Origin: Tepidiforma bonchosmolovskayae
GTDB taxonomy: Bacteria > Chloroflexota > Dehalococcoidia > Tepidiformales > Tepidiformaceae
Assembly (NCBI RefSeq): GCF_008838325.1
Contig: NZ_CP042829.1
Coordinates: forward strand, 1,054,001-1,118,000
DNA length: 64,000 bases
Reading direction: 5' to 3'
Positions 2,865 to 8,552 of the stretch are shown one piece after another. Under the pieces are notes generated by a model. It saw only the letters and a program-made list of their open reading frames with translations, searched no databases and was not told where the DNA came from. The translations under genes and the position numbers were made by a program. Each line of letters opens with the position of its first letter. The stretch's first letter is position 1.

Positions 2865-2954
2865 TGTTAGGTGACGGCTGCGGCCCGCCTTTACCGGGCG
2901 AGCGCGCGGGGGGGTTGTTGGGCGCGCGGGGCGGGTTCCGGCGATAATCGCGGC

Positions 2955-3602
2955 GTGCGTCAGCCGGCTTCGCCGATGCCGTCCGGTTCGGAACCGCCCC
3001 TGCCGGGGGCGGCGCCGCGGCGCCGGGTGGTGATCGACCTCGGCTGCGGGCGGCGGAAGAAGCCGGGCGCCATCGGGCTCGATATCGCGCGGGTGCCGGG
3101 CGTCGATGTCATCGCCGATGTGACGCGTCCGCTGCCCCTGAAGGACAGCTCGGTCGACGAGGTGTACGCCTCGCACCTTATTGAGCACGTGGACGACCTG
3201 CTGGCGTTTATGGGGGAGGTGTGGCGGGTGTGCAGGCCGGGTGCGCTGGTGTACTTCCGCTTTCCGCACGGTTCGACGCCGTTTCTGACGTGGAAGGACC
3301 CGACGCACCGGCGGGGGGTGTACCTGGCGATGTTCGAGTACTTCGACCCGACGACGCTGGACGGGCAGGTGTGGGGGTACTACCACCCGGCGAAGTTCAA
3401 GATTGAGCGTCGGCGGCTGCACTTCAATTTGAATTTCGACACGGTGCGCCCGGGGCGGGTGCGTGCGGTGCTGGGGTGGGTGTTCGACCGGCTGGCGAAC
3501 CGGGATGAGCGGTGGCTGTACGTGTGCGAGCGGTGGTGGGGGAACTGGGTTGGGATGGAGGAGGCGGAGATCTGGCTGCGGGTGCTGAAGGCGGGAGGGT
3601 GA
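2955..3602 (+). CDS. class I SAM-dependent methyltransferase
   Basis: A 215-residue protein with the Rossmann methyltransferase motif I (VVIDLGCGRRKKPGAIGLD) near residues 26-44 and an acidic motif II strand (VDVIADVTRPLPLKDSS), followed by a motif with SHLIEHVDDLLAFMGEVWRV. This arrangement is typical of Methyltransf_11-type enzymes that methylate small molecules or sugars and lipids. The substrate is not evident. The frame is open further upstream to 2871, but the GTG at 2955 is the best start because the residues before it are low-complexity translated intergenic DNA. The next gene starts 53 bases downstream. Confidence 0.8.
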   Translation: MRQPASPMPSGSEPPLPGAAPRRRVVIDLGCGRRKKPGAIGLDIARVPGVDVIADVTRPLPLKDSSVDEVYASHLIEHVDDLLAFMGEVWRVCRPGALVYFRFPHGSTPFLTWKDPTHRRGVYLAMFEYFDPTTLDGQVWGYYHPAKFKIERRRLHFNLNFDTVRPGRVRAVLGWVFDRLANRDERWLYVCERWWGNWVGMEEAEIWLRVLKAGG

Positions 3603-3655
3603 GGGGCCGCCTGGGGTGTGGCGGGGCCGGCGGCGGGGTTGTTAGGCTCACCACC

Positions 3656-4354
3656 ATGAAGAGGCCGAGGAAGCACTGGTCGCTGCGGGAGACCGGGCGG
3701 CCGTTACCGCCTCGGGATGCCATCGAGGACTTTCAAACGCGCATCCTCGCGTGGGCCCAGGAGCACGGGCGGGATTTTCCTTGGCGGCATGTCACCGACC
3801 CGTACCGGGTGGCGATCACCGAACTGCTGCTGCAGCAGACATCGGCTACCGCAGTGGCGAAATGCTGGCACGATTTCTTCGAGCATTTCCCGACGCCTTC
3901 GGCGCTCGCATCGGCTTCCGATGATGAGATTGCCTCGGCCATCGGACATCTCGGCCTGCACCAGCAACGCACGCGCCGCATTCGCGCGCTCGCACGTTGG
4001 ATGGCCGAGCACGGTAACAGCTTGCCGACAACCCGGGAGGAACTGGAGGCGGTCCCCGGGGTCGGCCAGTATGTCGCAAGCGCCGTCCTCGCCGTGTGCG
4101 CGGGACAGCCCGAACCGCTTCTTGACGTGAACATGACGCGCGTCATCGAGCGCTACTTCGGCGAGCGCACCCTCGCAGATATCCGAGACGACCCATGGCT
4201 CCAGGAGACGGCTCGAGCCGCGGCACCAGGTGCACGCCTTGGCTGGGCTGTGCTAGACTTCGCGGCATCTATTTGCCGAGCGCGGGCGCCGCGGTGCAGC
4301 CAGTGCCCGATTGTCATGAGTTGTTCGTCAACCAGCCTGCCTTATGAAAGTTAG
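3656..4354 (+). CDS. HhH-GPD DNA glycosylase, MIG/thymine-DNA-glycosylase-like, linked to a restriction-modification system
   Basis: A 232-residue member of the endonuclease III/MutY superfamily. The N-terminal DFPWRHVTDPYRVAITELLL (40-59) is characteristic of MutY and MIG enzymes. The helix-hairpin-helix is at about 130-142 (VPGVGQY), the catalytic Asp is D157 (LLDVN), and the [4Fe-4S] ligands are C207, C214, C217 and C223 with exact C-x6-C-x2-C-x5-C spacing. Tyr139 occupies the position that is Lys in endonuclease III and Ser in MutY; Tyr is what I recall for the T/G mismatch glycosylase Mig.MthI. The gene overlaps the next one, a putative restriction endonuclease, by 11 bases. I infer that it repairs T/G mismatches left by deamination of 5-methylcytosine. 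A plain MutY role is the alternative. Confidence 0.8.
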   Translation: MKRPRKHWSLRETGRPLPPRDAIEDFQTRILAWAQEHGRDFPWRHVTDPYRVAITELLLQQTSATAVAKCWHDFFEHFPTPSALASASDDEIASAIGHLGLHQQRTRRIRALARWMAEHGNSLPTTREELEAVPGVGQYVASAVLAVCAGQPEPLLDVNMTRVIERYFGERTLADIRDDPWLQETARAAAPGARLGWAVLDFAASICRARAPRCSQCPIVMSCSSTSLPYES

Positions 4355-5216
4355 CGTTCTCCAAGCAATTAATCTATTTTCTGCTCGTTTGATTTTGAAC
4401 AATGATAAGTTTCTGGTGCCGTTCAACAAGGCCTACCTACCACAAATAATGGCTCACAGTTCCGATCGCGACTTTCCTGTCTCGTTAGGCCAACATATGC
4501 GGGAAATCTTTCGTTCTTATGATGCAGGCGATAGAAGTCAAAGTTCTGTCTCGAAAGCAGGTATTGCTTGGGAACTACTGTGCGCGCTTTATCTAACGGC
4601 ATGTTTTAAAGGAACAGATGCAGCAGCTGTCCACAGAAGCCACGCTCGGCTACTACTCCCTTCCTCGGTACGTGAGGCTCTTAGAGTTACGATCTCTGGC
4701 AAGAAATTGGTTCCAGATAATGACATCATTGTTCTCGTTTGGAGAGGAGAACAGGTTCCAGAGATTAAAGTCGACAATTGGAAGAGGGTTCCGAAGAAGC
4801 GGATTGATGGAGCCTTAAACGATCCTTCAAAAATTCAGCTGTTTGCCATCTCCTGCAAGACTACTTTTAATGATCAAATAAATGCTGCTCTATTCTGGGA
4901 CATGATTTATCGAAGATACAAGCAAGATCACGCAAGGATTGCCGTAGGTGGCCGTGCGCAACTCTCTCAATTCTACGATGGACAGCTGAGAACAGCATTA
5001 TTTACCGTCCCTTCACAAAACAAAGTTGATTTTAACGCGACGAGTGCACCTGTCGTGAAAGGACAAATTATGAGCGGAGGAGTCTACTGGGGAAGACCGA
5101 CTGTAGATTTCATTGAGTCAATAGACAGATTTTTCCCGACCTGGGGAATACCAACGATAAGTAGCAAGTGGTCAGAAGAGAGTCAGGAAGCTACTATGCA
5201 TCCTTGGCCTTTCTAA
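4344..5216 (+). CDS. putative type II restriction endonuclease (AT-rich, probably acquired)
   Basis: A 290-residue soluble protein of clearly lower GC content than all neighbours, with many A/T-ending codons. I assign it as the restriction enzyme from context: it lies between a mismatch glycosylase that overlaps its start and a convergent cytosine-5 methyltransferase whose 3' end overlaps its own by 23 bases. Possible PD-(D/E)xK elements are PDND at 124-127 followed by FAISCK at 167-172, giving a D...SxK arrangement on two strands, with an early acidic residue E77. I do not recognise a named family or recognition sequence. The start ATG overlaps the glycosylase stop, so translational coupling is likely. 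Confidence 0.65.
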   Translation: MKVSVLQAINLFSARLILNNDKFLVPFNKAYLPQIMAHSSDRDFPVSLGQHMREIFRSYDAGDRSQSSVSKAGIAWELLCALYLTACFKGTDAAAVHRSHARLLLPSSVREALRVTISGKKLVPDNDIIVLVWRGEQVPEIKVDNWKRVPKKRIDGALNDPSKIQLFAISCKTTFNDQINAALFWDMIYRRYKQDHARIAVGGRAQLSQFYDGQLRTALFTVPSQNKVDFNATSAPVVKGQIMSGGVYWGRPTVDFIESIDRFFPTWGIPTISSKWSEESQEATMHPWPF

Positions 5217-6756
5217 TTTGCGATGCAAGGGTTTGGCCCACAGCTTTGGCCAGCAAGGGCGGCACGGCGTTCCCCACTTGGGTGTACTGCGGCACTTCAA
5301 ATTTGCGCCGCTCGGAGCCGGTCGTCTCTTTCGAGCGGAACTCAAAGTTGTCGGGGAACGACTGGAGGCGCGCGAGTTCCCGTACGGTAAACGTTCGCGG
5401 GTAGCGTGGGTGGACGAAGTCGTCGGGCAGGCTCATCACCGTCGGTGAGGGCTCGTCCCAGCGCATCGGGCGCTGCGAGTGCTTCTTGGTAGCAGCCGCG
5501 ACGACGAGCGCAACAAGCTCCTGCTTGTTTTCCGCGAGCACCGTGCCGTCTGGGGCAATGGCGGGAACGGGCGCGGCCCTGAGGAAGTGCTCGACGACTT
5601 CAACGCGGCTGTTTCCGTCGAGGCCCGGGTCGGCGGCGACATTGAGGAGGCCAGGCCGTATCCCGACCGCGTCGAAGTACTGGTACAGCCGGAACCGCAG
5701 CTCGATGGGAGGCGAGTGCTTACGTTGCGTTGCGTTCAGCGGGCGGGATGGAGGAGCAGCCTCCGGGAGGGCCGGGGGAAGCCACTCCGGCGAACAGCGC
5801 ATCGTCCAGGCGTATCGCCCTGGCGAGCACATATAGGACAGGTCGCCGCAATCGGCCGCGTACTGGAGTTCGCCGTCAACGTCCACAAGGTCCCAGAGAG
5901 CGTGTCGTACGGTCAGCGGCCGATTGACGGAGGGCACGGGACAAAGCGGCGAGGGCGGCAGCTGCCCGGAGACATAGAAGGGGAGCGAACCGGATAACCC
6001 CGCGGCCCTAGCGACATCGGTCCGCAAACCAACGAGGAACATCCGTGGCCGATGCTGCGGGACGCCGAAGTGCATCGCGTTCAACCGCATGGGCTGCACG
6101 ACGTACCTGGGACCGGTAGAAGCCAGCGCCTCCGCGAGTTCCCGGAAGGGCGCCTTGGCGCCGTTCTTGACGAAGTCTTGGCCGATACCGACGACGTTTT
6201 CAATCAGGACCGCCTTAGGTTCTATGGCCTCGACAACATCGAGAAACTGCCACGGAAGCTGGTTCCGGGCATCATGCGGGTCGCGACGGCCAGCCATCGA
6301 AAATCCCTGGCACGGCGGCCCACCGGCGACGAGGTCGACATCGCGCCTGCGGAGCTCCTCCAGCAACGTCGGCTCCCGGAGCAGCGCAGCGACTTCGTCG
6401 ACGATTAGACCCGCTTCGAACTGGGAGCGAAGCGGCTGCTCGCAGTAAGCTTTCCATTGCCTGGCGCCGGCGTCGCCCACGGGGAGACGCTGGATGAAGT
6501 TGTGGTAGTACGTCTCTGCGGCCATGGGGGACTTCTCAACGGCCAGGATGCCCCGGAACCCGGCCTTCTCGAGACCGAGGGAGAGCCCCCCGCATCCAGC
6601 AAACAGGTCGACGTAGGTGAGGTTTGGGTCCGTGTTCACATTATGCAAGCGCTTATGTACGTGAGCATTAAGCCCGAGCGTAATGTCGTCGCTCACCCCC
6701 GGCGAGTCAAGAGTTTGCCTCGCCCACAATCGCGCCTGCATCCCGTTAGCACTCAC
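5194..6756 (-). CDS. DNA (cytosine-5-)-methyltransferase
   Basis: A 520-residue C5 methyltransferase, longer than typical bacterial enzymes because of an insert between motifs I and IV. Motif I is DLFAGCGG (50-57), motif IV GGPPCQGFS carries the catalytic Cys149, motif VI is IENV (185-188), motif VIII is QHRPRMFLVG, and the C-terminal motif X is QVGNAVPP. It transfers a methyl group to cytosine C5 and should protect host DNA from the neighbouring endonuclease. It converges on and overlaps that gene. The first 40 residues are weakly conserved in character; a GTG at 6696 with a G-rich stretch before it is an alternative start. The variable target-recognition region lies between motifs VIII and IX. 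Confidence 0.92.
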   Translation of the reverse strand: MSANGMQARLWARQTLDSPGVSDDITLGLNAHVHKRLHNVNTDPNLTYVDLFAGCGGLSLGLEKAGFRGILAVEKSPMAAETYYHNFIQRLPVGDAGARQWKAYCEQPLRSQFEAGLIVDEVAALLREPTLLEELRRRDVDLVAGGPPCQGFSMAGRRDPHDARNQLPWQFLDVVEAIEPKAVLIENVVGIGQDFVKNGAKAPFRELAEALASTGPRYVVQPMRLNAMHFGVPQHRPRMFLVGLRTDVARAAGLSGSLPFYVSGQLPPSPLCPVPSVNRPLTVRHALWDLVDVDGELQYAADCGDLSYMCSPGRYAWTMRCSPEWLPPALPEAAPPSRPLNATQRKHSPPIELRFRLYQYFDAVGIRPGLLNVAADPGLDGNSRVEVVEHFLRAAPVPAIAPDGTVLAENKQELVALVVAAATKKHSQRPMRWDEPSPTVMSLPDDFVHPRYPRTFTVRELARLQSFPDNFEFRSKETTGSERRKFEVPQYTQVGNAVPPLLAKAVGQTLASQIRKAKDA

Positions 6757-6780
6757 TTCAGCACCTTGCTCAGCCTATCT

Positions 6781-6798
6781 GTTTGTCGGAGTTTGTCG
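6781..6798. repeat. tandem direct repeat GTTTGTCG x2, candidate operator
   Basis: GTTTGTCG occurs at 6781-6788 and 6791-6798, separated by GA. A 10-bp repeat period places both copies on the same DNA face. The site is between the methyltransferase start and the small HTH gene. It would be a suitable control site for balancing modification and restriction expression. Confidence 0.45.
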
Positions 6799-6799
6799 C

Positions 6800-6828
6800 A
6801 CTTTGGCGCATAGCGACGCAGATGTCAA
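6800..6828 (-). promoter_or_regulatory. candidate sigma-70-type promoter of the methyltransferase
   Basis: On the minus strand TTGACA (6828-6823) is followed after 17 bases by CAAAGT (6805-6800). The predicted start falls inside the direct repeat at 6781-6798, so a protein bound there would block transcription. The -10 box is only a partial match. Confidence 0.35.
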
Positions 6829-7024
6829 CGTCCCCCGTGACCTCACGCCCATAGCGGAGGCTGCAGCCATGTTCGGCGTCTCCCGCCGCACACTGGAGCG
6901 CCTCGTCCAGCAGGGCCAGCTCCGCCGATTTCGCCGCCCCGGCGACCGGCGAACGTTCGTGTCGCTCGACGAGGTCAACCGCGGCCTGGGCTTCCGCGAA
7001 GTTCCCTCGAAATACGAGCCGTAG
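6803..7024 (+). CDS. small helix-turn-helix (excisionase/MerR-type) DNA-binding protein
   Basis: About 74 residues with one clear domain: LTPIAEAAAMFGVSRRTLER is a helix-turn-helix, followed by a short wing (RRFRRPGDRRTFVS), as in HTH_17/excisionase-like and MerR N-terminal domains. No second domain is present. The frame is open back to an ATG at 6683, but residues encoded upstream of the TTG at 6803 look non-native and overlap the methyltransferase 5' end; GGAG at 6788-6791 could serve the TTG. Its position beside the methyltransferase promoter and the direct repeat suggests a controller-like role for the island, although typical C proteins have a different HTH type. It could also be an unrelated housekeeping regulator. 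Confidence 0.65.
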   Translation: MAHSDADVNVPRDLTPIAEAAAMFGVSRRTLERLVQQGQLRRFRRPGDRRTFVSLDEVNRGLGFREVPSKYEP

Positions 7025-7086
7025 CCCTGGACATTTCGCGGAATCGGCCGTAGGCTCCGCACCAGTAACCTATGGAGGGAATTGCC

Positions 7087-7299
7087 ATGGCCGTCGATAT
7101 CTGGGACCTGGAGGCGGGCGATGTGGTGGTGCTCATCAGCGGAAACAAGGCTGAGGTGGTTGCGCCGACCGAGGACGGCAGCTGGTTCCTGGCGCGCTAC
7201 CTCGAAGTGACCGACCCGGACGACGCATGGCTCGTCGGAACGTTTGACGCGGTCCACGCTGACGAGGTCGAGGCGGTCCTCCTCCCGGTTTCGCACTGA
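7087..7299 (+). CDS. small hypothetical protein (70 aa)
   Basis: A 70-residue acidic protein that begins MAVDIWDLEAGDVVVLIS and continues with alternating hydrophobic strands, suggesting a small SH3-like or OB-like beta barrel. The ATG at 7087 is preceded by GGAGGG (7074-7079) at good spacing, which decides against the in-frame ATG at 7072. There is no signal peptide. I do not recognise the family. It sits between the restriction-modification island and the acyl-CoA dehydrogenase and could belong to either region. Confidence 0.65.
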   Translation: MAVDIWDLEAGDVVVLISGNKAEVVAPTEDGSWFLARYLEVTDPDDAWLVGTFDAVHADEVEAVLLPVSH

Positions 7300-7376
7300 A
7301 GGAACGGGAGCACCCGCGGGCCGGGGCGGAAGGCGGTATAGTTCGGGCCCCACGAAGGTTTGGAGGCCCCTGCACG

Positions 7377-8552
7377 ATGCGGTTCCGCTACGACCCTGAA
7401 ACCGAGGCGTTCCGCGAGGAGGTTCGCCAGTTCATCCGTGAGCACCTGCCGCCGGAGGAGGAGCGGCTCCGCCGGGGCTTCGAGGGCGGGTTCCGCTCTC
7501 CCGAGGAGGAGAAGGCCTACGTGATGGGCTTCCAGCGGAAGCTCGCCGAGCGGGGCTGGCTGGCGATGGCCTGGCCGAAGGAGTACGGCGGCGGCGGCGC
7601 TTCGCACATGAAGCAGCTCGTCTACAACGAGGAGATGGCCTACGCGCAGGCGCCGGTCGGCAACATGGGTATCGCCTGGGTGGGCCCGAGCCTGATGCTC
7701 TACGGGACGGAGGAGCAGAAGCGCACGTTCATCCCCCGGATTGCGCAGGCGCAGGACTGGTGGTGCACGCTCTACAGCGAGCCGGGCGCGGGTTCGGACC
7801 TGGCGGCGCTGCAGACGCGGGCGGTCCGCGACGGCGACGATTATGTCATTAACGGCCAGAAGATTTGGACCTCAGGCGGGCACCTGGCCGACTGGGGGTG
7901 GCTGGCGGCGCGGACAGACCCGGATGCGCCGAAGCACAAGGGGATCACGATGTTCATGGTGAACATGAAGAGCCCGGGGATTACGGTGCGCCCGCTCATC
8001 AACATGGCGAACCGGCACGGCTTCAACGAAGTGTTCTTCGAGGATGTGCGGGTGCCGGCGACGCAGGTGGTGGGGGAGGTGAACCGGGGCTGGTACCACA
8101 TGGCGGTGGCGCTTGATTTCGAACGCTCCGGCATCCAGGCGTATGCGGGCGGGCGGCGCTCGGTGGAGCGGCTGGTGGCGCTGGCGAAGGAGCGCCCGGA
8201 GCTGGTGCGGCGGCGCCCGGGCATCCGGCACGAGCTCGCTGACCGGGCGGTGGAGGTGAACGTGGGAACGTTCCTGGCGTACCGGGTGGCGACGATGCAG
8301 GCGCGGGGGCTGGTGCCGAACACGGAGGCGTCGGCCTCGAAGCTGTTCGGGAGCGAGCTCACGCAGCGGATTGCGCTGACGGGGATGCACCTGCTGGGGA
8401 TGGCGGGTCAGCTCCGCGACGGGAGCCCGCACATGGTGATCGACCAGGCGACGGGCTACCTGCAGGCGGTGAGCGCGACGATTGCGGCAGGGACGAGCGA
8501 GATCCAGCGCGGGATTATCGCGACGCGCGGGCTCGGTCTGCCGCGCGGGTAG
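7377..8552 (+). CDS. acyl-CoA dehydrogenase
   Basis: A 391-residue flavoprotein of the acyl-CoA dehydrogenase family. The FAD-binding middle domain motif WWCTLYSEPGAGSDLAALQT (about 124-143) and VINGQKIWTSGG are conserved, and the C-terminal domain ends with AAGTSEIQRGIIATRGLGLP, the usual FAD-contacting segment. Length is normal. It oxidises an acyl-CoA to the 2,3-enoyl-CoA, passing electrons to ETF; the chain type cannot be read, but the sequence style resembles FadE-type enzymes used for branched or steroid-like acyl chains. A TATAGT -10 box lies at 7337-7342. A HAD phosphatase gene follows after 4 bases. Confidence 0.9.
   Translation: MRFRYDPETEAFREEVRQFIREHLPPEEERLRRGFEGGFRSPEEEKAYVMGFQRKLAERGWLAMAWPKEYGGGGASHMKQLVYNEEMAYAQAPVGNMGIAWVGPSLMLYGTEEQKRTFIPRIAQAQDWWCTLYSEPGAGSDLAALQTRAVRDGDDYVINGQKIWTSGGHLADWGWLAARTDPDAPKHKGITMFMVNMKSPGITVRPLINMANRHGFNEVFFEDVRVPATQVVGEVNRGWYHMAVALDFERSGIQAYAGGRRSVERLVALAKERPELVRRRPGIRHELADRAVEVNVGTFLAYRVATMQARGLVPNTEASASKLFGSELTQRIALTGMHLLGMAGQLRDGSPHMVIDQATGYLQAVSATIAAGTSEIQRGIIATRGLGLPRG

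Follow-up and report, generated by a model that had tools for sequence, protein, structure and literature searches.

A candidate type II restriction-modification cassette with a Mig-type mismatch glycosylase in a bacterial genome

5-Methylcytosine is mutagenic, and to our knowledge most of what is known about how restriction-modification (R-M) systems handle this cost concerns Vsr and a single archaeal glycosylase. A preliminary description of a bacterial locus proposed that a glycosylase gene, an endonuclease gene overlapping it by 11 bases and a convergent C5 cytosine methyltransferase gene form one unit, which raises the question of whether the glycosylase could be the repair companion of the methyltransferase. 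The locus lies in the window, a stretch of 64,000 nt at positions 1,054,001-1,118,000 of the single 2.75-Mb contig of the host's Chloroflexota genome (G000), and comprises the following features.

3656..4354, + strand: predicted Mig-type HhH-GPD [4Fe-4S] mismatch glycosylase, 232 aa, ATG start, TAG stop
4344..5216, + strand: putative type II restriction endonuclease with a CCGG-family-like fold, 290 aa, ATG start
5194..6756, - strand: C5 cytosine DNA methyltransferase, 520 aa from a GTG start
6683..7024, + strand: HTH_17/excisionase-like ORF (Pfam HTH_17, 7e-8 over residues 57-99)
3610..7312, no strand: island without a counterpart in the congener G404 (blastn against L096/L104)

The cassette, its island and its endonuclease

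The three-gene unit was confirmed, as all three ORFs are present and unbroken and the Pfam matches to HhH-GPD (PF00730, 3.7e-16) and DNA_methylase (PF00145, 7.3e-54) exclude chance. The methyltransferase also matches TIGR00675 (1.1e-44) and retains intact GGPPCQ, ENV and TQVGNAVPP motifs; its true start may lie downstream of the GTG, and its target sequence could not be deduced from the recognition domain. The 11-nt overlap probably couples the translation of the glycosylase and the endonuclease, and the methyltransferase converges on the endonuclease with their ends overlapping by 23 nt. The HTH_17/excisionase-like ORF, which is a further member of the island, is probably real only after position ~6820.

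The cassette sits within a 3.7-kb island (about 3610-7312) that is missing from G404, where the sequences flanking the island (91% nucleotide identity over 2920-3609 and 96% over 7313-8011; blastn) are contiguous around another insert. The flanking genes, with 88% and 98% protein identity between G404 and the window, are ~870 bp apart in G404, and the insert between the homologues of window 2871-3602 and 7377-8552 (L096) reads as an HNH-type endonuclease ORF. Given these differing inserts, the insertion site resembles a defence locus whose content is exchanged. No convincing repeats were found in a search of the island borders. The GC content is 44.6% in the endonuclease gene, ~64% in its two partner genes and 70% in the surrounding region. 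GC3 differs in the same manner (0.41 in the endonuclease, 0.73-0.77 in the glycosylase and methyltransferase, and 0.87-0.92 in the flanks), so that the cassette looks imported and may be a mosaic.

The call of the second gene as a putative endonuclease drew no family match above the cutoff in Pfam (best RE_BsaWI, E = 0.043, sub-threshold), yet fold and active-site evidence speaks in its favour. The candidate active site, D127-x44-K172-x13-D186, is invariant in a family of five (the window, L008, L022, L023 and L024). Its spacing fits the permuted PD...K...D/E site of the CCGG family, including the Asp variant found in BsaWI and AgeI (PMC6344858). An AF2 model of moderate confidence (pLDDT 58, pTM 0.65) gave PfoI as the top VIA-align match (Z 9.5, rmsd 4.6, 201 residues aligned), followed by PfoI apo, AgeI, Cfr10I, AgeI apo, BsaWI, Bse634I and SgrAI, so that the first eight rows are all CCGG-family. 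VIA-align alone was informative here, as Foldseek on the same model returned no match with E below 0.001. The window endonuclease thus resembles the CCGG-family enzymes (PfoI, AgeI, BsaWI, Cfr10I, Bse634I, SgrAI, Kpn2I and NgoMIV) in predicted fold and active site, but it has no significant sequence similarity to them, and a comparison with PDB sequences found no relative. It also lacks an arginine between K172 and D186, where the R-(D/E)R motif is replaced by an invariant N176-D177. Members of the CCGG family vary at this recognition motif, for example AgeI and PfoI (PMC6344858); because the motif is not evident after Lys172, a CCGG core of the target is not established.

The endonuclease family is sparsely represented. 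The 400 Chloroflexota genomes surveyed held only two members, and neither tblastn in plasmids and phages nor the first viral scan with the endonuclease alone gave a match. The relatives that were found adjoin C5 methyltransferases, and L008 keeps a methyltransferase and a glycosylase together with a member of this family. The conserved pairing, together with the modelled nuclease-like fold and the active site, points to a putative endonuclease partner of the methyltransferase, which as a candidate cognate enzyme would share its specificity.

Family and pocket residues of the glycosylase

The glycosylase has a complete set of cluster cysteines (C207, C214, C217 and C223), the catalytic residues Asp157 and Glu56, and a pocket composed of Phe41, Ala64, Tyr139 and Trp197. 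Its nearest solved sequence is Mig.MthI (1kea, 4e-35), with MutY slightly behind (4e-32), and the AF2 model (pLDDT 91) placed the two in a near tie, with 1kea as the top fold match (Z 25.1) and MutY at 24.2. A PADLOC match to PDLC03398, 'type II nicking endonuclease', was set aside as an identification, since this model matches Mig.MthI over its full length with 533 bits but matched MutY as well and is not discriminating. Residues discriminate between Mig and MutY better than match scores. The specificity switch between them involves A50 and L187 in Mig.MthI versus V45 and Q182 in E. coli MutY, and the F27/L22 pair (Mig/MutY) has also been proposed for the thymine pocket (PMC2714593).

In our residue table, MutY-type proteins have Leu (Met in one case) where the window glycosylase has Phe41, Val or Ile where it has Ala64, and in most cases Gln where it has Trp197. 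Ala64 occupies the A50 position as in Mig, where MutY has Val. Trp197, at the L187 position, is neither the Gln of MutY nor the Leu of Mig.MthI; the methyltransferase-linked L008, L025, L026 and L031 have Trp here as well. The Ala64 signature is not absolute, given that methyltransferase-linked L119 has Val64 and L120 has Gly. The methyltransferase-linked glycosylase at L119:5006-5689 reads F-E-V-Y-D-Y. The preliminary description had relied on Tyr139 as the hallmark of Mig, and this argument fails: the residue occurs in both Mig-type and MutY-type proteins in the table, and the equivalent of Tyr126 is found in Bst MutY too (PMC2714593). The Mig-type conclusion nevertheless stands, because Phe41, Ala64 and Trp197 differ from MutY, and it is further supported by the closest structure and by phylogeny. 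In a 59-row tree, support of 99/99 separates 32 MutY-type rows from the rest, with Mig.MthI on the side of the window glycosylase, and the grouping with MutY orthologues named beforehand as the result that would count against the proposal was not observed. Near the root, the tree gives no firm order of the Mig-type rows. The window glycosylase falls in a 99/89 clade with L008, L025, L042 and L068, all of which bear the Mig signature; three of these four partners lie near R-M genes, and one shares an operon-like gene run with a C5 methyltransferase.

Two readings of the protein itself compete with a Mig-type enzyme. The first is a truncated or duplicated MutY for A:8-oxoG repair that came to lie beside the R-M pair by chance. 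The best NCBIfam model is indeed mutY (4.6e-43, far below its cutoff), Gln60-Gln61 are MutY-like where Mig.MthI has Arg-Arg, and Tyr139 fits MutY as well as Mig. MutY also shares the fold, the iron-sulfur cluster and the Glu/Asp pair with the window glycosylase, and many bacteria have Tyr at the HhH position of MutY. We nonetheless consider this reading unlikely. All three diagnostic pocket positions differ from the Leu/Val/Gln of MutY, so that Ala64 and Trp197 stand in place of Val45 and Gln182; the protein ends at 232 aa and lacks the C-terminal 8-oxoG-recognition domain; and the phylogeny is separate. The genome, moreover, holds a separate MutY-like protein (L001, pocket Leu/Val/Leu), and linkage to C5 methyltransferases, described below, recurs in distant phyla but in none of the MutY-type genes examined. 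L001 has Leu at the position of E. coli Q182, unlike most MutY proteins. The second reading is that the enzyme removes 5-methylcytosine itself in the manner of ROS1/Demeter, thereby regulating or erasing the modification. The HhH-GPD [4Fe-4S] superfamily is common to both, and ROS1 is a distant fold match (Z 16.0), but Tyr at the position of the EndoIII Lys suggests a monofunctional enzyme, Mig is the closest family, and a cell that erased its own methylation next to an active endonuclease would not survive; we regard this as extremely improbable.

Linkage to C5 methyltransferases

We next consider the genomic link between Mig-type glycosylases and methyltransferases, whose absence in relatives would have spoken against a repair link; it holds across phyla, on plasmids, on viral contigs and in Chloroflexota. 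In the survey of 400 Chloroflexota genomes, the best 30 glycosylase matches were taken, 13 of which carry the Mig signature. With the window and G280, a genome of the same phylum, left out, a C5 methyltransferase was found within 1.5 kb at 7/11 new Mig-signature loci versus 0/17 MutY-type loci (Fisher p = 2.8e-4; p = 5e-4 when collapsed by genus). At L042, the methyltransferase is 9 kb away in the same operon-like run. A second Chloroflexota batch showed the link at 4/5 testable non-MutY-type loci versus 0/3 MutY-type loci. With wider flanks, the second batch, and the window and G280 counted in, the Chloroflexota totals are 14/18 testable Mig-type loci beside a C5 methyltransferase versus 0/20 for MutY-type. 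Such a neighbour is lacking at the Mig-signature loci L080, L082 and L083, at L124 and on a Gloeothece plasmid (L030). The first three belong to one Chloroflexota genus, in which radC adjoins the glycosylase gene.

Beyond Chloroflexota, relatives of the glycosylase adjoin C5 methyltransferases on an Alisedimentitalea plasmid, with an MvaI/BcnI-family endonuclease, on a Thermus plasmid, where the two genes overlap, and on three haloarchaeal plasmids, as in the case of Mig.MthI; a Caldicellulosiruptor plasmid combines a glycosylase relative and a C5 methyltransferase with a PLD-domain endonuclease. In the Alisedimentitalea locus (L025:4001-4109), a stop lies near the N-terminus of the glycosylase frame, and the annotated 174-aa product is without the catalytic Glu region. 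A first viral scan with a two-row glycosylase alignment gave no match. In viral contigs L069 and L071, the genes for a methyltransferase, a glycosylase and an EcoRII-C endonuclease follow one another and overlap or abut, and in viral contig L068 an MvaI-family endonuclease gene overlaps the glycosylase. Of the linked loci as a whole, some are DISARM-like (L084 with DrmE_C; L086 with a ResIII helicase and an MZB protein) or include a GHKL ATPase (L089). DISARM-like genes adjoin Mig-type glycosylases in L084, L086 and L087, which suggests that these enzymes serve as repair companions in DISARM too.

These glycosylases are usually annotated as 'hypothetical' or 'mutY', and the residue signature separates them from true mutY genes. 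The arrangement had been called rarely described. It is thinly documented, but it is not rare, recurring widely in bacteria, archaea and phages, including the Thermus, Caldicellulosiruptor, Alisedimentitalea and haloarchaeal plasmids, the viral contigs and many Chloroflexota. A search of mainly open-access literature turned up no report of a mismatch glycosylase linked to a bacterial R-M system.

Exchange with Vsr and the proposed role

The best reason to think that the glycosylase performs the task of Vsr is that the two replace each other among relatives. Viral contig L024 carries the window's endonuclease family (split by a frameshift) and a C5 methyltransferase with a Vsr gene (6.4e-31) in place of the glycosylase, and a C5 methyltransferase is likewise accompanied by Vsr in the congener G400 and in G350 of the same family. 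Three Chloroflexota genomes (G094, G230 and G100) hold both enzymes, the Mig-type gene next to one C5 methyltransferase and Vsr next to another. The host genome has a single C5 methyltransferase, and a search for Vsr in it found none. The stretch examined in L022 contains the endonuclease and the methyltransferase with neither Vsr nor a glycosylase. The gene neighbourhoods suggest that a C5 methyltransferase can be partnered interchangeably by a Mig-type glycosylase or by Vsr, which replace each other between close relatives, and that C5 systems, DISARM-like ones among them, tend to be accompanied by a dedicated T:G enzyme of one type or the other.

The structure of the genes, the family and pocket residues of the glycosylase, its recurrent linkage and its replacement by Vsr in relatives are seen directly. 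Judged from these sequence features, the locus is very probably a mobile type II R-M cassette that includes its own T:G mismatch glycosylase and thus forms a counterpart of MthTI/Mig in bacteria. The methyltransferase would methylate cytosine at C5 within a short target, and the endonuclease, with its CCGG-family-like fold, would cut the same target if unmethylated. Deamination of 5-methylcytosine would leave T opposite G. The glycosylase, presumably a monofunctional Mig-type enzyme (Asp157, Glu56 and no Lys at the EndoIII position), would flip out and excise the mispaired T (or U), after which C could be restored by the AP endonuclease, polymerase and ligase of the host. Methylation sites would thereby be preserved and the mutational cost of methylation limited, with base excision in place of Vsr nicking. 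The Dcm/Vsr type is alike in this proposed job and in genomic position, but Vsr is an unrelated protein that nicks DNA 5' of T and performs no base excision.

Alternatively, the glycosylase could be a defence effector that excises U, 5-hydroxymethyl-U or unusual T derivatives from invading DNA alongside cutting. Defence islands of the R-M, DISARM-like and GHKL-ATPase kinds contain homologues, and base-excision restriction exists in principle, as in R.PabI (PMC10273834). The fold of R.PabI is unrelated, however; Mig.MthI, the nearest relative of solved structure, repairs T:G and U:G; and Vsr, which is a repair enzyme, fills the corresponding place in systems with this endonuclease family and in other C5 systems from the host's genus and family. 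We therefore hold this alternative to be quite unlikely. A dual role as both caretaker and defence enzyme, in which the endonuclease would cut unmethylated DNA while the glycosylase excises mispaired or modified pyrimidines of invaders, appears very unlikely.

The precedent for the repair cassette is Mig.MthI beside MthTI on plasmid pFV1 of Methanothermobacter thermautotrophicus (L033), where a short HhH-GPD glycosylase likewise lies near the C5 methyltransferase of a type II R-M system. Mig.MthI shares the Phe/Ala/Tyr pocket, the catalytic Glu and Asp and RVI.RYFG with the window glycosylase; the two proteins have only 35% identity and differ at L187 (Leu versus Trp) and at 46-47 (Arg-Arg versus Gln-Gln). 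The MthTI host is archaeal and its endonuclease is of the NgoPII family, whereas the window has a bacterial host, a CCGG-family-like endonuclease and an 11-nt overlap between this gene and the glycosylase that MthTI lacks. To this precedent the present system adds a bacterial host, another endonuclease family and the Trp variant, and the survey adds evidence for Vsr/Mig exchangeability. Candidate bacterial Mig enzymes, the Trp variant included, are now at hand for probing the MutY/Mig specificity switch. In G100, the matches to Vsr and to a C5 methyltransferase fall within one 574-aa ORF (L116:4355-6079), which is possibly a Vsr-methyltransferase fusion.
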